From Alkalibacter rhizosphaerae (GTDB lineage Bacteria; Bacillota; Clostridia; Eubacteriales; Alkalibacteraceae), in the NCBI RefSeq assembly GCF_017352215.1, contig NZ_CP071444.1, positions 434,001 through 498,000 on the forward strand: a DNA stretch of 64,000 bases, given 5' to 3'. The notes beneath the pieces were generated by a model that saw nothing but the letters and a program-made list of their open reading frames with translations, was not told the origin of the DNA and ran no database searches. Positions 25,763 to 54,658 of the stretch are shown here, one piece after another; position 1 is the first letter of the stretch; every line of letters begins with the position of its first letter. Made by a program: the position numbers and the translations under genes.

Positions 25763-26332
25763 TTATAGGATCTCCACCAGCTGACCGTTGGAAACTCCTG
25801 CTGCATTGCCTTCTTCTACATCTACGTGCATCTCCAAGGCATACTTGTCGCTTACACGAACCAATACGTTGGAAAAGATCAGTCCACGCTTCCCGCCTAC
25901 TTGCACTTGAACCTCGTCTTTATCCTTCAGTCCGAATTCCTTTGCATCATCCGTGTGCATATGAATGTGTCTAGAAGCAACAATGGCTCCTTGACCGATT
26001 TCCACAGAACCTTTGGGACCATCGATTTTTATGCCGGGTGAATCTGCAATGTCTCCGCTGTCTCGCACGGGCGGTTTGATCCCCAATGCATAACTGTCGG
26101 ACACGGAAATTTCCAATTGGGTTTGGGGTCTCGTGGGTCCCAGGATCCGAACCCCTTTTATGGTTCCCTTGGGTCCGGAAACATCCACTTTTTCTTCACA
26201 TGCATATTGTCCTGGTTGAGACAAGTCCTTCATGGGCGTCAACTCGTAATTTGCTCCAAACAACGTTTCCAAGTCCTCTGGCGACAAATGGATGTGTCGG
26301 TTGGACATGGCGATGGGTACTAGTTTTTTCAT
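25763..26332 (-). CDS. pduL: Phosphate acyltransferase PduL
   Basis: PduL interconverts acyl-CoA and acyl phosphate (propionyl or acetyl). The 189-residue protein has both histidine-rich metal sites of the family: SNRHIHLS near residue 12 and ASRHIHMHTDDA near residue 120, with the repeated beta-barrel pattern (GPTRPQTQLEISVSD). No microcompartment genes or encapsulation peptide-like N-terminal extension are visible, so this is probably a soluble phosphotransacetylase. It is a stand-alone unit; a kinase-like partner at 49756-50952 is 23 kb away. Start 26332 follows TTGGAGGT. Confidence 0.92.
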   Translation of the reverse strand: MKKLVPIAMSNRHIHLSPEDLETLFGANYELTPMKDLSQPGQYACEEKVDVSGPKGTIKGVRILGPTRPQTQLEISVSDSYALGIKPPVRDSGDIADSPGIKIDGPKGSVEIGQGAIVASRHIHMHTDDAKEFGLKDKDEVQVQVGGKRGLIFSNVLVRVSDKYALEMHVDVEEGNAAGVSNGQLVEIL

Positions 26333-26360
26333 TATTAACCTCCAAGATTTAATATTTATC

Positions 26361-26389
26361 ATTCTATCACAGCTGAAGTTTGTTTAAAA
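26361..26389 (-). promoter_or_regulatory. Possible pduL promoter
   Basis: TAGAAT (26361-26366) with a weak TTTTAA -35 at 17 bases (26384-26389) on the minus strand. Only the -10 half is convincing. Confidence 0.4.
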
Positions 26390-29472: not shown

Positions 29473-29500
29473 ATTATATAATGTCACATATTTATTACAA
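29473..29500 (-). promoter_or_regulatory. nadK promoter
   Basis: TTGTAA (29495-29500), 16-base spacer, TATAAT (29473-29478) on the minus strand. The -35 overlaps the tlyA stop codon. Confidence 0.72.
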
Positions 29501-30289
29501 GGTGCTTTGGGCGTTTTTTACCACCAAATCGATTTCTGCAGACCACTCTTCATCCTCCGGAGAAGAATTCTCCAATAAAACCAGATATTCGATATTTCCT
29601 TTTGCTCCTTTGATCGGTGAAAAATCCAATCCGATGGGCTTCAGGCCATTTTCGACAAACGCTTTCAGCGTTGTTTCCAAAACTTCCCGATGGACCTCTT
29701 CGCTTTTTACGATCCCGTGCTTTCCCACTTTATCCTTGCCTGCCTCAAATTGCGGCTTGATCAAAACTACGGCCAATGCCCCTGCCTTTAAAAAGAGAAG
29801 CATGGATGGGATCAGCTTTGTTACAGAAATAAAGGAAACATCCATGACAAAAAAATCCACTTTTTCTCCAATTTCTTCATAGGTCAAATAACGAAAATTC
29901 GTCCGTTCCATGGAGATGACCCGTGGATCACTCCGAAGCTTCCAATCTAGTTGCCCATATCCCACGTCGATGGCATACACCTTGGCCGCTCCATTTTGCA
30001 GCATGCAATCCGTAAAGCCGCCGGTGGACGCACCGGCATCCATGGCAACCTTGTCTTTTAAATCAATGCCAAAGCGGTCCATGGCTTTTTTTAATTTCAA
30101 TCCACCCCGGCTAACATATGGACAGTCTTTTTCTCGAACGTCGATTTGATCATCGTCTTTTACTTTGGTTCCCGCCTTATCGACGATTTGGCCGTTGACT
30201 GTCACGTTGCCTGCCATGATGTTCCTTTTCGCCGATTCCCGACTGTCAAAAAAACCATTCTCATGAAGATATACATCCAGTCTAGACAC
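29495..30289 (-). CDS. tlyA: TlyA-family rRNA 2'-O-methyltransferase (hemolysin A type)
   Basis: A 264-residue protein with an N-terminal S4 RNA-binding domain (RLDVYLHENGFFDSRESAKRNIMAGNVTVNG) and a C-terminal FtsJ-like methyltransferase (DAGASTGGFTDCMLQNGAAKVYAIDVG, FFVMDVSFIS, LIKPQFEAGK). Mycobacterial TlyA methylates 16S C1409 and 23S C1920; the same role is likely but untested for this group. The start is GTG 30289 after AAGGGGGG; it overlaps the membrane-protein gene by eight bases. Confidence 0.92.
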   Translation of the reverse strand: MSRLDVYLHENGFFDSRESAKRNIMAGNVTVNGQIVDKAGTKVKDDDQIDVREKDCPYVSRGGLKLKKAMDRFGIDLKDKVAMDAGASTGGFTDCMLQNGAAKVYAIDVGYGQLDWKLRSDPRVISMERTNFRYLTYEEIGEKVDFFVMDVSFISVTKLIPSMLLFLKAGALAVVLIKPQFEAGKDKVGKHGIVKSEEVHREVLETTLKAFVENGLKPIGLDFSPIKGAKGNIEYLVLLENSSPEDEEWSAEIDLVVKNAQSTL

Positions 30290-30902
30290 TGCCTTTCCCC
30301 CCTTTTCTAAATTCCATCGGGTGTTTTAGAAAAGCCAATACAGAGCCAAATCGATACACGATCTGCGTGTTGTGTTCCATAGCAATATTCTTTCCAAATG
30401 CTTTCCCACCGACCGTGAAAGCTGCGACAAACCCATTGATGATGATCACCAGTATGGTCGTGTCCCGCAAATTATACGAACTGCCAATTTGGTACACGAT
30501 GCTGATCGCCGTTGCCCCACTGACGATGCCACAGATGTCTCCGATCACATCGTTGCAGAAATTGGAAACCTGACTTGCATTTTTGACGATCCCCACCGCT
30601 TCCCTGGCACCCCGGACCCGGTTTGCCGCCATGGAATTGAAAGGGGTCATGTTGGCAGAGGCGACCGCAATTCCCACCATATCAAAAAAAATCCCAATAG
30701 CAACTATTGTGATTAGAATACTGACTGAAAACAAAATTTTTGTATTTTGGATAAAAAGTTCCGTGATCAGATTGATGCCGATGGACAAAAAAAACGTCCA
30801 GATGGTAATGAAAATCATCCATCTTCGTTGTCTCTGCAGTTTCAATTCTTTTGTAGATTGTTTTGTGCGCCTCTTGGGCACCTCTTTCGAATTCAATACC
30901 AT
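30282..30902 (-). CDS. oapA: OapA-like integral membrane protein (OLE RNA partner)
   Basis: A 206-residue membrane protein with about four hydrophobic segments (IFITIWTFFLSIGINLITELF, LFSVSILITIVAIGIFFDMVG, NDVIGDICGIVSGATAISIVYQIG, LVIIINGFVAAFTVGG) and a highly basic N-terminus. The central segment (MAANRVRGAREAVGIVKNASQVSNFCNDVIGDI) recalls the DUF21 domain of CorB-like proteins, without CBS domains. Placement just downstream of a large structured RNA and upstream of tlyA matches OLE-associated protein A, which binds OLE RNA at the membrane. Start is ambiguous: ATG 30902 abuts the GAGGG site, while TTG 30896 has ideal spacing. Name is by synteny and general character. Confidence 0.75.
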   Translation of the reverse strand: MVLNSKEVPKRRTKQSTKELKLQRQRRWMIFITIWTFFLSIGINLITELFIQNTKILFSVSILITIVAIGIFFDMVGIAVASANMTPFNSMAANRVRGAREAVGIVKNASQVSNFCNDVIGDICGIVSGATAISIVYQIGSSYNLRDTTILVIIINGFVAAFTVGGKAFGKNIAMEHNTQIVYRFGSVLAFLKHPMEFRKGGKGSV

Positions 30903-30904
30903 CC

Positions 30905-31493
30905 CTCATATCATAATAAAATATGGTGGCAGTGCAACAAGTAAACTTTGCGCCTTAGGTCCAGCAGGTTTTCCCAAAAAGAGACCGATTCGTCACCAAA
31001 CCGGCGGTTTCCCTTGCCCTTTTTTCATTTTGTCACCAAAAATGAGGCTGGATTGCCACTTAGTACACACTGTAATCCTTGCTGCACTTCCTGCGGAACA
31101 GTCTAGGAGTTTTCCTCAACAGTCACATCGCTTCCTAGCCTCTTTTGCAAGACAGGTTTCGACGAGCAATACCCATTGGCTTGGAGCTCTCAAGCCGAAT
31201 AGACTGATCCCATCATCTCCCTGTCTCACTCAAGGCAGGCTACGCTGCATCCATATCTTGCGCAAGCAAAACATTTCGGCAGGTTTCTCCCGATTGCTCG
31301 GGTCTCCGCGGAAGCAGGGTCCACGCCCGCATGCCATTGCGGATCGCCCCGTCTCCCTTTACTCCCTGTAAAAGCCCCCAACTGGGCGTCGAAAGCCAAT
31401 ACAAGAAACTTCATCGATGTGCCCTTCGACGGATTTTTAGCCCCGCCTTGAGAAGCGATAGATCTGACTAGAATACTGCACCACCATATAATC
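30905..31493 (-). ncRNA. ole: OLE RNA (large structured noncoding RNA)
   Basis: This 590-base stretch holds no plausible gene but is densely structured. Minus-strand hairpins include GGCTTG/CAAGCC (31178-31196), CCCGA-GCAA-TCGGG with a GNRA loop (31289-31302), CCGCA/TGCGG (31327-31342), TCATTTT/AAAATGA (31025-31045) and AAACC/GGTTT (30998-31010); TTTGGTGAC occurs twice, 40 bases apart. A consensus-like promoter lies at 31500-31528. Length of about 600, position between ispA and a small membrane-protein gene, and the xseA-xseB-ispA / tlyA-argR-recN surroundings match OLE RNA, which localises to the membrane with OapA. Ends are estimated: 5' from the promoter, 3' from the oapA ribosome site. 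Confidence 0.82.
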
Positions 31494-31499
31494 AATAAA

Positions 31500-31528
31500 A
31501 TTATATCATACTGCATATTTATTTACAA
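31500..31528 (-). promoter_or_regulatory. Promoter of the OLE RNA
   Basis: TTGTAA (31523-31528), exactly 17 bases, TATAAT (31500-31505) on the minus strand, starting just after the ispA stop. Predicted start of transcription is near 31493. The transcript would continue into oapA and tlyA unless processed. Confidence 0.82.
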
Positions 31529-31534
31529 TCAACC

Positions 31535-32410
31535 TCAGTAGTCCCGGTTGCAGATGAACCCTGTCAATTCCACCAAAAAATCATTGGAAATCCCAGACTT
31601 GTGCAGGCAGTCCAAGGATTGGTGGTACAGTTCGTCCACGATTTTTACCGTCTTTTCCAAACCATAAAATCCCGGATAGGTGATCTTGTTGTTTTTGGAG
31701 TCATTTCCCGTTTCTTTCCCGGTTCGCGATGCATCTCCGGTGATGTCCAACAAGTCGTCAACGATTTGAAACACCAGCCCGATGTTTTCACTGTACTGCT
31801 CCAAATACTTTAGTTGCTCCTTCGTCTTGTTGGCCATAATGGCTCCAGCCATGACGGAGGCTTTGATCAGTGCACCTGTTTTCCTTTTGTTGATGCTCTC
31901 CAGTGTATCGATGTCTTGGATGTTCCCTTCGTTTTGAACATCATCGGCCTGACCTCCTACCATTCCCTGTACCCCGGCAGCTTCTGCGACTATTCTCATG
32001 GCCGCCAAGTACCTGTCGGCATGGGATCGGGGAATCCCGTCCAATAACGTTTCGAAGGCAAAATTCAACAATCCGTCTCCCGCCAGAATGGCTATTTGTT
32101 CTCCATAAACCATATGATTGGTGGGTTTGCCTCGTCTCATGGAATCATTGTCCATGGCAGGCAGGTCATCGTGGATCAACGAATAGGTATGGATCATCTC
32201 CAATGCCAATGCCAAAGGCAACGACCCCTCCATGGAACCGGCCATTTCCAGGAGCAACATGGGACGTATCCGCTTTCCTCCCGCCAACAGGCTGTACTCC
32301 ATGGATTCAAAAAGGGGGGTCGGGATCTTTCCTTTTAATTCTTCCATGCGACATGCAAGGTTCACTTCTATATACGCCCTTTTCCTGTCCAATTCCTCTA
32401 AAAATATCAT
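31535..32410 (-). CDS. ispA: Farnesyl/geranyl diphosphate synthase
   Basis: A 291-residue short-chain polyprenyl synthase that condenses IPP with allylic diphosphates. The first aspartate-rich motif is DDLPAMDND at about residues 81-89 and the second is DDLLD near 218; GGKRIRPML and the KTGALIKASVMAGA segment are also typical. It overlaps xseB by four bases in the xseA-xseB-ispA order standard for Firmicutes. Product length (C15 or C20) cannot be told from this reading. Confidence 0.94.
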   Translation of the reverse strand: MIFLEELDRKRAYIEVNLACRMEELKGKIPTPLFESMEYSLLAGGKRIRPMLLLEMAGSMEGSLPLALALEMIHTYSLIHDDLPAMDNDSMRRGKPTNHMVYGEQIAILAGDGLLNFAFETLLDGIPRSHADRYLAAMRIVAEAAGVQGMVGGQADDVQNEGNIQDIDTLESINKRKTGALIKASVMAGAIMANKTKEQLKYLEQYSENIGLVFQIVDDLLDITGDASRTGKETGNDSKNNKITYPGFYGLEKTVKIVDELYHQSLDCLHKSGISNDFLVELTGFICNRDY

Positions 32411-32634
32411 GAATCCACCTCGCCAAAAGGTTCTTTGATCGTCCCGTCTTTGCCGGCAGCCAATTTGACCACCTTTTGCTGGGTCGATTCCAGTTCTTCT
32501 TCACACAAACGCACCAATTCCATGCCTTCTTCGAACAATGCAACGCTTTCTTCCATGGTCGGCTGGTTGGTTTCGATCCGTTTGACGATTTCTTCGATCC
32601 GTTTGACACGATCCTCATAGGACTGTTTTTTCAT
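32407..32634 (-). CDS. xseB: Exodeoxyribonuclease VII small subunit
   Basis: A 75-residue helical protein with the family pattern YEDRVKRIEEIVKRIETNQPTMEESVALFEEGMELVRLCEEELESTQQKV. It pairs with XseA to form exonuclease VII, which degrades single-stranded DNA. Four-base overlaps with both xseA and ispA indicate strict translational coupling. Confidence 0.93.
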   Translation of the reverse strand: MKKQSYEDRVKRIEEIVKRIETNQPTMEESVALFEEGMELVRLCEEELESTQQKVVKLAAGKDGTIKEPFGEVDS

Positions 32635-37908: not shown

Positions 37909-39204
37909 TTATCCGATCAATGTTTCCTGCAATTCACGAAGTTTGTAGATCAGTGTTGTCTTGTCCAGTTCGATATCATCATAAGTAATGATCTCGCCTG
38001 TCTTCTTCGGTTTGAGCAATTTGGTATTCTTTGTGATCAGTCCCAATGGAACCGCTCTTTCTGCTTTTGCCGTTTCATACTCTTCGAATGTGCCAAACAC
38101 TGTAAATCCTCCGATGCCATCCAGCATGTCTCCAGCGGCCAGGTCTTTCTTCACAACGGTGATGGTCTCTGCCACCGGTTTTCCAGGCAATGGAACGATG
38201 GTGGGCTCATTGTAGATGACTGCTCTTGCAGCAGACAAGGGAGTTTCCAGGCTGGTCAGATGATATGGTCGGAACAAGACATAATTCGGTCCCGGTCCCA
38301 TGCTCAAATATTGCATTTCATGGTGGATCTGGGGAAGATCTGTCGTAACGATGACAAATACTCCAGGTGCAACTCCGTTGACGTAATCAACGATCTTTGT
38401 ACTGCTCAAGATCCCTCCGTTTTCTTTCAGTTGGAAAATCCCTGGCAATTCATTGACGACAGCAGATGGTCCGTGTCCGCCTCGAACATCCGGGAGATAT
38501 CCAGTGGCATTAGCCATGGCGGTCATTTCCACCATTGTTTTCGTGCCATCTTTGAATGCAGTAAGCATTTTGGGGCTAACGCCGCTGTTGATGGCTTGCT
38601 CCCGTACGGTATCCGGGTTGCATCCGGCTACGACCGGGTTGTTTTTGCCTTTTCCGATGGCGACGATGTCCATTCCCATTCCATCGGCAAAATCATACAG
38701 TTCCATAACGGCACCAGGCTCGTCTCCGGCAGATCCGGTATATATGACGCCTGCATTATCCGCCATTTTTTTCAAATAAGCGCCAATAACCACGTCCGTT
38801 TCCACATTAAGCATAACGACATGCTTTTTGTTCATGATGGCATCAATGGCGATCTTTGCGCCAACATCCGGTACGCCAGTCGCATCCACAACGACATCCG
38901 TCAAGTTTGCTGCTGCAGGGATATCTGCATTGGCGGATGCCACGTATTTGCCTTGTTCCATGGCAACATTTGCTTCCGACAACAGGTCGGTGACCACGAT
39001 CTCGTCTCTGGCGATACCGGTCAGTGTGTAGGACTCAATGGCGTTATCCACATTGATGTCAACAACGATGGCCGGGATCATGCCTTTCATTTTCATGATT
39101 TGGCTGACCATGCCCTTTCCCATTTGCCCTGCTCCCACCAAACCCAGTTTGATCGGCTTTCCTGCTTCTTCCAACGCTCTCAATTTGCGATTCAAATTCA
39201 ACAT
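37909..39204 (-). CDS. COG4091-type NAD(P) dehydrogenase with SAF domain
   Basis: A 431-residue oxidoreductase. The N-terminal Rossmann fold has GLVGAGQMGKGMVSQ at about residues 21-35; the middle resembles the homoserine dehydrogenase NAD-binding family (VVVDATGVPDVGAKIAIDAIMNKKHVVMLNVETDV); the C-terminus (about 345-410) fits an SAF domain (VVKKDLAAGDMLDGIGGFTVFG). The enzyme is the last gene of the PTS operon, in the place where sorbitol-6-phosphate dehydrogenase would be expected, so it probably oxidises or rearranges the imported polyol phosphate. Substrate unknown; true homoserine dehydrogenase activity is unlikely. AAGGAGG precedes ATG 39204. Confidence 0.82.
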   Translation of the reverse strand: MLNLNRKLRALEEAGKPIKLGLVGAGQMGKGMVSQIMKMKGMIPAIVVDINVDNAIESYTLTGIARDEIVVTDLLSEANVAMEQGKYVASANADIPAAANLTDVVVDATGVPDVGAKIAIDAIMNKKHVVMLNVETDVVIGAYLKKMADNAGVIYTGSAGDEPGAVMELYDFADGMGMDIVAIGKGKNNPVVAGCNPDTVREQAINSGVSPKMLTAFKDGTKTMVEMTAMANATGYLPDVRGGHGPSAVVNELPGIFQLKENGGILSSTKIVDYVNGVAPGVFVIVTTDLPQIHHEMQYLSMGPGPNYVLFRPYHLTSLETPLSAARAVIYNEPTIVPLPGKPVAETITVVKKDLAAGDMLDGIGGFTVFGTFEEYETAKAERAVPLGLITKNTKLLKPKKTGEIITYDDIELDKTTLIYKLRELQETLIG

Positions 39205-39216
39205 TTCGTTTCCTCC

Positions 39217-39570
39217 TTAAAAGATAATGATACTCGATCCGATCTCGATTTCCGGTACTCCGTCACCTTTCAAATGAACCGTTCCCGGCAATTGAGGTTC
39301 TTCTGCTCCGTCAAAACGCAGGGAACAATGTCCCATGGTTTTTAGTGTGTGATTTGCTTCATCTCCGACAGCAGTGACAAAATATTCCTTGCCGGCAATA
39401 TCCATCAAATCTCCAACTTGTACTTCCGAAGCCAACTCCGAAATTTCATGCCATACAGAAATCTCCTTCAATTCCGCCGGGGCGTTCTCATTAAATATGA
39501 TGAGCATGTTTTCCGACAAGAAATCCAACGCCATGTCTCCGAATCCGGTGACTTTTACATTGTACTTCAT
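39217..39570 (-). CDS. PTS glucitol/sorbitol-type EIIA
   Basis: A 117-residue SrlB-like EIIA. It has the family framework FLSENMLIIFNENAPAELKEISVWHEISEL, with the histidine of VWHE as probable phosphorylation site, then FVTAVGDEANHTLKTMGHCSLRFDGAEEPQLPGTVHL. It accepts phosphate from HPr and passes it to the EIIB part of the neighbouring subunit. AAAGGAGG precedes ATG 39570. It is separated from the EIIBC gene by about 210 bases holding a hairpin and a small palindrome. Confidence 0.9.
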   Translation of the reverse strand: MKYNVKVTGFGDMALDFLSENMLIIFNENAPAELKEISVWHEISELASEVQVGDLMDIAGKEYFVTAVGDEANHTLKTMGHCSLRFDGAEEPQLPGTVHLKGDGVPEIEIGSSIIIF

Positions 39571-39589
39571 AGCAATCCTCCTTTGTTTT

Positions 39590-39603
39590 TTGACCTTTGT
39601 CAA
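39590..39603 (-). promoter_or_regulatory. Palindrome TTGACAAAGGTCAA before the EIIA gene
   Basis: A 14-base inverted repeat TTGAC-AAAG-GTCAA sits directly upstream of the EIIA ribosome site. It contains a TTGACA hexamer but no -10 follows. It could be an operator or a chance feature. Confidence 0.35.
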
Positions 39604-39739
39604 CGCTTCTATCCACTTATGCTCGACTGAGCTTGAATTACGATTTTATGATCCACTATATGTATGTATACCAAATTCAGGCATTTATTTTCGATTTTAA
39701 AATTAACAAAAATTCTATGTATCCTATCCCCTAAAATAG

Positions 39740-39768
39740 TGAAGAAAGAAGGTGCGGCAAGCCGCACC
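39740..39768 (-). terminator. Intra-operon hairpin between EIIBC and EIIA genes
   Basis: Minus-strand stem GGTGCGG-CTTG-CCGCACC (39762-39768 with 39751-39757) followed by TTCTTTCTTC. It could be a leaky terminator or an mRNA-stabilising hairpin that sets subunit ratios. The following 140 bases to the EIIA gene contain no gene that I can support. Confidence 0.6.
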
Positions 39769-39784
39769 GTTTTCTTTCCATTTT

Positions 39785-40765
39785 TTAAAACAATCCAAAG
39801 CTGAACAAAAATGCGATCACTACGGAAATTGGTCCGGTGATCAATCGGGAGAACAATACGGCCGGAACTCCGATTTCAACGGTTTCAGGAGTTGCTTCTC
39901 CCAAACTCAAACCTACAGGTACAAAGTCGCAACCAACTTGCGGGTTGATGGCAAACAATGCCGGCAAAGCGTATTGAGGAGGAATGTTTCCTTTTCCAAT
40001 TTCAACGCCCAAGAACACGCCGACTACCTGTGCGATTACAGCACCTGGTCCCAAGATCGGCGACAGGAACGGCAATGCGCAGACAATACAAACGATCAAC
40101 AGTCCTATCAGACTTCCTGATATAGGAGCAATGGCTTGTGCAATGATATTACCGATACCAGACTCGGAAATGATACCGATCAACATGGATACGAATGCCA
40201 TGAAAGGCAGAATGTTGTTGATGACCATTTGAACCGTTTGCTTTCCTGCTGAGAAGAACTTGTTTACAACGCCTCCAACAGATTTACCCAGTCGTACGAT
40301 CAGACCGCTTTTCTTTTGATTGCCTGCAGCCGCGGATGCAGCGGCTTTCGGTGCATCTTCCGTTGCCTTCGCTGCTTGACTGACGGTTGCTCCTTCGTCT
40401 GCCAATGTTACGTTTTCCACTTTGACTCCGGATACGTAAATGTCTTCCTTGATGTATTGCGCCAGCGGTCCAGATTGGCCTACGGGCGTCAAGTTGACGG
40501 TGTACACGCCTTTTTTGGGATAAACACCACAACGGGCGGTGCCGCCACAGTCTACAACGGCAACAAACACTTCTTCATCCGCTACAGTGGTAGCGAAACC
40601 ATCCACGACTCTGGCACCAGAAAGCTCTGCGATTCTTTGCGATACTGGGTCGATGCCTCCTCCGGTGACGGACAATACTACATTTCTTTTTTCATCAGGT
40701 TTGATGACCAACGGGCCACCCCAACCAGCTTTTCCTTTTTCAAGTCGAATTGCATTATAAGCCAT
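39785..40765 (-). CDS. PTS glucitol/sorbitol-type EIIBC
   Basis: A 326-residue SrlE-like subunit. The cytosolic EIIB domain (about 1-130) carries the phosphocysteine region VDCGGTARCGVYP (C73 and C79; C73 is the likelier site). An Ala/Lys linker (about 131-160) leads to an EIIC part with four or five membrane helices (ILPFMAFVSMLIGIISESG, LLIVCIVCALPFLSPILGPGAVIAQVVGVFLG). It works with the separate EIIC gene upstream to import and phosphorylate a polyol. AAGGGAGGCGG precedes ATG 40765. Confidence 0.9.
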   Translation of the reverse strand: MAYNAIRLEKGKAGWGGPLVIKPDEKRNVVLSVTGGGIDPVSQRIAELSGARVVDGFATTVADEEVFVAVVDCGGTARCGVYPKKGVYTVNLTPVGQSGPLAQYIKEDIYVSGVKVENVTLADEGATVSQAAKATEDAPKAAASAAAGNQKKSGLIVRLGKSVGGVVNKFFSAGKQTVQMVINNILPFMAFVSMLIGIISESGIGNIIAQAIAPISGSLIGLLIVCIVCALPFLSPILGPGAVIAQVVGVFLGVEIGKGNIPPQYALPALFAINPQVGCDFVPVGLSLGEATPETVEIGVPAVLFSRLITGPISVVIAFLFSFGLF

Positions 40766-54419: not shown

Positions 54420-54658
54420 TAAAAAAATCCCCTGCTCTCGCAAGGGACGATATAAACCGCGGTGCCACCCATGTTGATACAAAATGCGTATCCACTTGAA
54501 ATATAACGGCTGTGCCGGCGAAATGTACTTGTTTTCCAATTCGCACTCCGGAGTGAATTTCAACCTGGTTTCATAAGAATTCTTTCAGCTGTTGAATTCT
54601 CTCTCTTAAAAAAACCGTTTGGTCTCCCGTCTCCATCATCATTTTTTTTATGCAATTA
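54420..54658 (-). promoter_or_regulatory. T-box leader of pheST
   Basis: The minus strand contains the T-box core GGGTGGCACCGCGGTT (about 54458-54473), followed by the terminator TCCCTTGC-GAGA-GCAGGGGA plus seven T (54427-54449). Upstream are the stem I region and purine-rich loops typical of these leaders. Several TTC triplets could be the Phe specifier; one in GAAATTCACTCC (about 54558) is a candidate but was not resolved by folding. Uncharged tRNA-Phe should stabilise the antiterminator and switch on pheST. Confidence 0.93.

Follow-up and report, generated by a model that had tools for sequence, protein, structure and literature searches.

The window, that is, the whole stretch of DNA analyzed here (64,000 nucleotides from Alkalibacter rhizosphaerae, contig NZ_CP071444.1, positions 434,001 to 498,000), contains a non-coding gap between the stop codon of ispA (31535) and the start codon of oapA (30896 or 30902). 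The gap and its neighbors are arranged as follows:

31535 to 32410, minus strand: ispA (polyprenyl synthetase), the upstream neighbor; PF00348, E 3e-56
30910 to 31500, minus strand: gene for the OLE RNA, matching RF01071 over its whole length; predicted transcript from ~31493 to ~30922
30282 to 30896, minus strand: oapA, membrane partner protein, adjoining OLE downstream; weak CNNM match and CNNM-like predicted fold
29495 to 30289, minus strand: tlyA, the downstream neighbor; PF01728 and PF01479

When the window was scanned with the Rfam OLE covariance model RF01071 (cmscan), a full-length match was obtained on the minus strand at 30910-31500, covering model positions 1-616 of 616 with 492.1 bits and E 2.3e-141 (the gathering score is 50 bits). 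The original prediction had proposed an OLE (Ornate Large Extremophilic) RNA at 30905-31493, coordinates that are present in the sequence, within an xseA-xseB-ispA ... tlyA-argR-recN neighborhood. The covariance model bears out the RNA, and the gene order xseA-xseB-ispA-OLE-oapA-tlyA-nadK-argR-recN is confirmed. Judged by its sequence, the locus almost certainly encodes a full-length OLE RNA. A search of the 2.45-Mb genome with RF01071 found one OLE copy. In Bacillota, 2,822 OLE matches have already been reported (PMC11332333, available in part). Our literature search found no paper joining Alkalibacter and OLE RNA.

In the 24 loci that were chosen by OapA and used as alignment rows, the neighbors were tlyA (24 loci), ispA (23), recN (23), and argR (16); oapA was adjacent to OLE in 25 of the 29 loci retrieved with the RNA model. 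Elsewhere in the window, a lone phosphate propanoyltransferase (PTAC) gene at 25763-26362 adjoins recN; its other neighbor presumably is lgt, which it resembles by eye. At 37909-40765, a DRL-type oxidoreductase gene adjoins a glucitol/sorbitol PTS IIA gene, which could represent a sugar-alcohol cluster together with what we take, by eye, to be one more PTS gene. A T-box leader (108.1 bits) lies on the minus strand at 54440-54648.

A promoter with a 17-base spacer had been placed just upstream of the RNA, and a matching site with 10 of 12 consensus positions and a TG before the −10 element is found there:

31500 to 31528, minus strand: predicted promoter of the extended −10 type, TTGTAA-17-TATAAT, the −10 being preceded by TGA; transcription should begin near 31493

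Within 30000-32500, four promoter-like sites were counted compared to 3.5 ± 1.8 in shuffled sequences, so that the window alone gives no significant signal. Such a chance-level count is what would be expected if the promoter-like site were incidental and the OLE RNA were only cut from an ispA-to-recN operon transcript, and the H. halodurans cluster is indeed described as being transcribed into one polycistronic RNA (PMC12265935, available in part). Conservation argues otherwise. Two congeners carry identical TTGTAAA and TATAAT upstream of OLE. When motifs were counted in a 42-base stretch whose end lies 8 bases upstream of the conserved AGTAT block at the RNA 5′ end, with dinucleotide shuffles for comparison, an exact TATAAT was present upstream of 51 of 54 OLE genes (shuffle mean 9.3, maximum 17) and of 29 of 32 non-redundant ones (shuffle mean 5.6, maximum 13). 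The extended form TGnTATAAT preceded 24 of the 32 non-redundant genes (shuffle mean 0.5, maximum 4). In 49 of 54 cases, a −10 element, exact or with one mismatch, ends 13 to 24 bases before the AGTAT block, which would set the start at or just before helix P1. Moreover, H. halodurans ole, while lying within a large operon, has its own promoter as well (accessible text of PMC9723947), and operon transcription and an own promoter are compatible with each other. We therefore consider transcription from the operon alone improbable. The counts show that a predicted promoter belonging to ole itself is general in the clades sampled; it was earlier known in one species, and the conservation count is new here. 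An own ole promoter is not mentioned in the available portions of PMC12265935, PMC11332333, and PMC12286853, which were searched for the promoter term. In those of PMC12054373, promoters come up only for vectors and T7 and in the title of one reference, and in those of PMC10898510 only for the ykoY riboswitch and in one reference title.

No terminator-like site was found on the minus strand between the OLE RNA and oapA, and P1 ends ~20 to 25 bases ahead of the oapA start. Because there is no terminator there, the mature 3′ end is probably made by processing. The same two features would be expected if the stretch were an extended, structured 5′ leader controlling oapA in cis and yielding no free RNA. 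Contrary to this, OLE and oapA are not adjacent in four genomes, namely, G011, G015, and G028 (all genus g10), and G061; in G015, they are ~200 kb apart on one contig, and in the others they are on different contigs. Both are nevertheless kept in genus g10, and a cis leader could not act from such positions. In addition, a free RNA of ~630 nt is reported in H. halodurans (PMC9723947, seen in part). The leader-only explanation is thus largely refuted and, in our estimate, very unlikely.

To return to OLE as an RNA in its own right, we asked how well the published fold describes it. We aligned 54 distinct OLE sequences: the window, 29 from relatives, and 24 from named contigs. In 32 named loci, RNA coordinates were found by profile, with a plus-strand match in all 32, and 24 of them were used as rows. 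Left out were L002 to L004 (probable copies of the G002, G001, and G003 OLE), L007, L008, and L020 (truncated at the 5′ end), L026 (a stretch of N in place of the 5′ half), and L027 (contig beginning within the RNA). We aligned by sequence (MAFFT), took the structure from Rfam, and counted the 146 Rfam pairs with letters in the window. A non-redundant set comprised 32 sequences less than 85% alike.

Standard pairs occupied 87.7% of cells in the 54 sequences compared to 73.8% with shuffled partners (maximum 74.6 in 100 shuffles), and there were 1278 two-sided cells compared to 445 (maximum 512). Two-sided changes were seen in 110 of the 146 mapped pairs (shuffle maximum 90), that is, paired-base covariation rather than codon-like substitution, as expected in the original prediction. 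All four covariation measures exceeded each of the 100 shuffles on these 54 sequences, and sliding the partners by 1 to 3 columns lowered pairing to 43 to 47%. In the non-redundant set, 87.0% of cells were paired (72.4% shuffled), with 811 two-sided cells (281 shuffled, maximum 319). In the window itself, 140 of 146 pairs are standard and six are non-standard. The weakest helices on the alignment were the distal P9 stem and P8, with 63.3 and 72.6% of cells paired. Overall, the published OLE fold most likely applies to the window RNA, as far as can be judged from the alignment.

In the Rfam alignment of the window, the first 53 bases are without pairs, and helices P1 and P3 are absent from the Rfam pairs. 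We scanned for helices of at least 4 pairs between bases 13-53 and the unpaired bases 351-591 (nucleotide 1 being window position 31500) and obtained 60 candidates. The top two by two-sided pairs, 41-50/366-375 and 13-21/571-579 in RNA numbering, fit the published P3 and P1 by position:

31480 to 31488, minus strand: P1 5′ strand, pairing with 30922-30930; 9 bp, 83.9% of cells paired (shuffle mean 71.4, maximum 74.0)
30922 to 30930, minus strand: P1 3′ strand, from the same helix scan
31451 to 31460, minus strand: P3 5′ strand, pairing with 31126-31135; 10 bp, 80.1% of cells paired (shuffle mean 61.7, maximum 65.1)
31126 to 31135, minus strand: P3 3′ strand, from the same helix scan

For both helices, the numbers of paired and of two-sided cells were above every shuffle on 54 rows and again on 32; the counts of two-sided pairs on 32 rows, 9 for P3 and 8 for P1, were not above the shuffle maxima of 10 and 8. 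P3 has two-sided changes in 9 of 10 pairs on 54 rows and forms 10 continuous pairs in the window. P3 has been proposed to span the membrane (PMC12265935, available in part).

Many further helices are present, including four elements that bear on the original reading and on the class of the RNA:

31289 to 31302, minus strand: P7, a 5-bp GCAA hairpin of 14 nt (median 23); shorter in just 1 of 54 rows
31245 to 31282, minus strand: P8, 13 pairs, 72.6% of cells paired, the alignment being weak here
31025 to 31045, minus strand: GUGA-capped hairpin with the first TTTGGTGAC copy at 31040-31032
30984 to 31005, minus strand: GUGA-capped hairpin with the second TTTGGTGAC copy at 31000-30992

The GNRA-capped CCCGA/TCGGG stem noticed originally corresponds to P7 (CCCGA-GCAA-TCGGG, 31302-31289). 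As for the motif TTTGGTGAC, described as repeated, both copies were found; they are not a DNA repeat and instead belong to two adjacent GUGA-capped stems, whose loops keep the GNRA form in 53 and 54 of the 54 OLE sequences. By analogy with the family, the second of these hairpins is probably a part of the P12.2/P13 region, where the OapB binding site has been mapped (PMC9723947, seen in part).

Two reduced OLE classes were considered. In variant 1, P7, P8, and P9 are all short and the OapB site is often missing; in the window, P8 is 38 nt (median 32) and P9 is 99 nt (median 98). Variant 2 is devoid of P7 and P8, both of which the window OLE has. Both labels were rejected because P8 and P9 are not reduced: the window OLE is a typical full-length OLE in which P7 is very short, within the known family. 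Its resemblance to the full-length type of Fernando and Breaker 2024 (PMC11332333, available in part) extends to size, a model match from end to end, helices P1 and P3-P9, and the 3′ domain, as well as to gene order, an adjoining OapA, and the presence of OapB, a candidate OapC, and bS21 in the genome. It differs from that type in that P7 is a 5-bp GCAA hairpin, P6 lacks CCUCCU, and an MpfA-type protein is also encoded. Separately, the OLE at L043:711-1358 (G003) has an unusually long P8, of 92 nt compared to the median of 32.

OLE dimers are held together at four contact points: the A-rich P4 loops, two pairings of a P5.1 with a P6.1 loop, and the P9 loop, which is self-complementary (accessible parts of PMC12286853 and PMC12265935). 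In the window, the loops at these contacts are UAAAAA, GCCCA, UGGC, and AGCU:

31428 to 31447, minus strand: P4 hairpin with the A-rich loop CUAAAAA, putative dimer contact 1; UAAAAA in 54 of 54 rows
31412 to 31419, minus strand: palindrome CAUCGAUG in P4a, which corresponds to the OapA site mapped in the family; AUCGAUGA in 54 of 54 rows
31362 to 31408, minus strand: P5/P5.1, with the putative dimer-contact loop GCCCA at 31387-31383; GCCCA in 53 of 54 rows
31310 to 31357, minus strand: P6/P6.1, bS21 region, with GGC at ~31335-31333 complementary to the P5.1 loop; GGCAU in 54 of 54 rows
31138 to 31236, minus strand: P9 arm, with the apical loop AGAGCUC (31190-31184) containing the self-complementary AGCU, the predicted kissing loop of the dimer

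The P6 and P6.1 helices were paired in 96.1 and 100% of cells across the 54 sequences. A 4-nt palindrome occurs in the P9 loop of all 30 non-redundant sequences that have this loop, while its letters vary (letter shuffles gave a mean of 15.0 and a maximum of 23). The remaining two of 32, L016 and L017, are without the distal P9 stem and the kissing loop. L016 comes from a metagenome-assembled genome labeled delta proteobacterium and could be a Bacillota contig under a wrong name. Since the contact loops are conserved and the P9 loop palindrome is kept, the OLE sequences agree with dimer formation. The window shares the A-rich P4 loop, the GCCCA loop, the GGC loop, and the self-complementary P9 loop with the C. 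acetobutylicum OLE dimer solved by cryo-EM (PMC12286853, available in part). It differs in the P9 loop, which is AGCU, a variant listed there beside GGCC, and in that its dimer is predicted from sequence. A palindromic OapA binding site near P4a is described in the accessible text of PMC12265935.

The original prediction took the gene next to the RNA for the membrane partner OapA, and a weak CNNM match together with a CNNM-like predicted fold upholds this. The more likely start of oapA is the TTG at 30896, 6 bases after GAGGG, rather than the ATG at 30902; the two congeners have GGAGG followed by TTG at the same position. The 204- to 206-residue protein matched the CNNM family at E 0.0016 and 18.6 bits, below the cut-off of 28.4, and matched nothing in Pfam at E 0.001, in NCBIfam at 0.01, or in a PDB sequence search with either a single sequence or a profile. 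Its closest relative is OapA of Alkalibacter mobilis (76%). The AlphaFold model (mean pLDDT 81.4) aligned with the CNNM transmembrane domain 7m1t with Z 13.7 and rmsd 2.2 over 129 residues (VIA-align), although helical models can reach Z ~14 by arrangement alone, without kinship. Four CNNM entries led the VIA-align fold search, the next chain having Z 7.0; a Foldseek search with the model gave CNNM matches of E 2.3e-3 at best, none reaching E 0.001. The model-based evidence that OapA is a CNNM-type membrane protein is good but not final. While its model thus resembles the membrane domain of MpfA/CNNM Mg2+ transporters, OapA, encoded next to ole, differs from them in lacking CBS and CorC domains; that an RNA stands in their place is a hypothesis from the literature.

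Of the other known partners of OLE, the genome also encodes OapB, a candidate OapC, and bS21. The best PDB match of OapB was 7k9b, “OLE-associated protein B” (E 1.5e-10), the next family being eL14 (E 0.01). Its gene adjoins infA on one side and, as we take it from open reading frames read by eye, map on the other. The OapC candidate best matched YbxF structures (E 2.1e-13) and scored 75.5 bits against the NCBIfam L7Ae-like equivalog, below the cut-off of 113. In the OLE family, OapC is orthologous to YbxF and binds the RNA at its k-turn; reading the open frames by eye, we presume that the candidate gene lies between rpoC and rpsL.

A gene for bS21 is present as well. In H. halodurans, a CCUCCU sequence in the P6 region of OLE mimics the 16S tail (PMC12054373, available in part). 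CCUCCU was found in none of the 54 OLE sequences, the window having CUUCC, and CCUCC was found in 10 of 54. Thus, in the clades sampled, the CCUCCU mimic is not a general feature of the aligned sequences, and the predicted bS21 binding is less sure here because CCUCCU is absent. Mimic mutants that keep conserved G-C pairs still bind bS21 (accessible text of PMC12054373), and three adjacent P6 G-C pairs, given by alignment position and not in H. halodurans numbering, are invariant in all 54 sequences. In comparison with the H. halodurans OLE ribonucleoprotein (PMC9723947, PMC12054373, and PMC12265935, each available in part), the window is alike in having oapA as the next gene, genes for the partner proteins (a candidate in the case of OapC), and an own promoter inside an operon, here a predicted one. 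In H. halodurans, in contrast, P6 mimics the 16S tail perfectly and mpfA is absent, while in the window there is no mimic and the genome has an MpfA-type gene.

The distribution of OLE and its protein partner was assessed in 81 genomes, OLE being searched for with stricter filters that may lose weak matches. OLE was present in 35 of them, and OapA in all 35 genomes with OLE compared to 2 of the 46 without (uncorrected for kinship); weak OapA matches in G014 (a 51-residue piece with a stop) and G017 (E 1.3e-4) were not counted. The two genomes with OapA and without OLE are G034 and G071. In G071 (0.9 Mb, 100% complete), the OapA homologue (E 4.1e-40) lies at L069:2371-2970, followed by a sub-threshold L20 leader and preceded by a gene that, by eye, we take to be proS. 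No OLE was found in L069 or in L070, the region around OapA of G034, nor with looser filters in the whole genomes G071, G034, G065, and G068; the same model does match in the A. rhizosphaerae genome (G000). A conserved OLE 19-mer, allowing up to 3 mismatches, was found in G000 and G069 and not in G071 or G034, controls showing that this search is near chance level. G034 is 84% complete, and absence of OLE there means little. In G071, either OapA occurs by itself or an OLE is present that has diverged far. Separately, a full OLE RNA (399.8 bits) was seen at L068:2986-3650 on the Pusillibacter faecalis plasmid pMM59_01 (NZ_AP023421.1; 504 kb, typed conjugative); after it come a CNNM-domain (OapA-like) gene, dxs, and tlyA.

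One complete CNNM-CBS-CorC (MpfA-type) protein is encoded in the A. rhizosphaerae genome. Such a protein is the proposed all-protein substitute for the OLE system. A CorC_HlyC domain was found in 15 of the 35 genomes with OLE compared to 42 of the 46 without (Fisher p 3.7e-6, uncorrected for kinship), in line with the published anticorrelation, which places the window in a minority with both systems. With this substitute encoded in full and usually found where OLE is missing, the window RNA might be suspected to be a decaying, non-functional copy whose role has been taken over. The state of the locus speaks strongly against this: the RNA scores 492 bits, its conserved blocks and dimer elements are intact, as is the oapA frame, 140 of the 146 pairs counted above are standard, and there is 87 to 90% identity to two congeners, which likewise have both systems. 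We regard decay as highly improbable.

Last, an overlooked protein-coding gene was considered, since a 96-amino acid sense frame and antisense frames, the longest of 262 amino acids, span the OLE region. The longest open sense frame is 90 codons in the window and 85, 76, 58, 46, and 64 codons in L042, L039, L043, L044, and L047; the longest open antisense frame is 153 codons in the window and 87, 87, 59, 104, and 80 codons in the same five relatives. A hidden gene is next to inconceivable given that the sense frame has no Pfam match at E 0.001, frames of both strands are shorter in each relative and not kept, and two-sided pair changes run along the whole RNA, all of which supports the original description of the gap as non-coding.

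Overall, it is very probable that the locus is best explained by an OLE RNA with its own promoter, the published fold, and partner proteins. Under the proposed mechanism, the RNA would be transcribed from the extended −10 promoter in the ispA-ole gap, starting near 31493 and reading on into oapA, and its mature 3′ end would arise by processing. P1 would close the molecule and P3 would link domain 2 to domain 1, while the P4, P5.1, P6.1, and P9 loops would join two copies as a dimer. The CNNM-type OapA from the next gene would anchor the RNA at the membrane, and addition of OapB, OapC, and bS21 would complete a stress-response ribonucleoprotein. Taken as a whole, this mechanism seems reasonably likely. 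The dimer, the membrane location, the stress role, and partner binding are taken from other species, where OLE plays a part under stress from cold, alcohol, Mg2+, and the carbon source according to the published accounts available in part, and they may be used in the same way here. The ribonucleoprotein status that the original prediction gave to the locus likewise follows by analogy with the OLE family.

Tentatively, OLE and OapA may form a tightly kept but separable pair. In this somewhat doubtful reading, ole would stand as a unit of its own, with an extended −10 promoter conserved across these clades, it and oapA could lie far apart, as in genus g10, and OapA could persist without OLE, as in the complete and strongly reduced genome G071. 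If true, OapA would have an RNA-independent function, against the published statement that oapA occurs only with ole. Few conserved bacterial RNAs are as large as OLE, which is proposed to form a membrane-crossing dimer. A complete OLE in an anaerobe genus that has an MpfA-type protein too would bring both proposed Mg2+-stress devices together in one setting.
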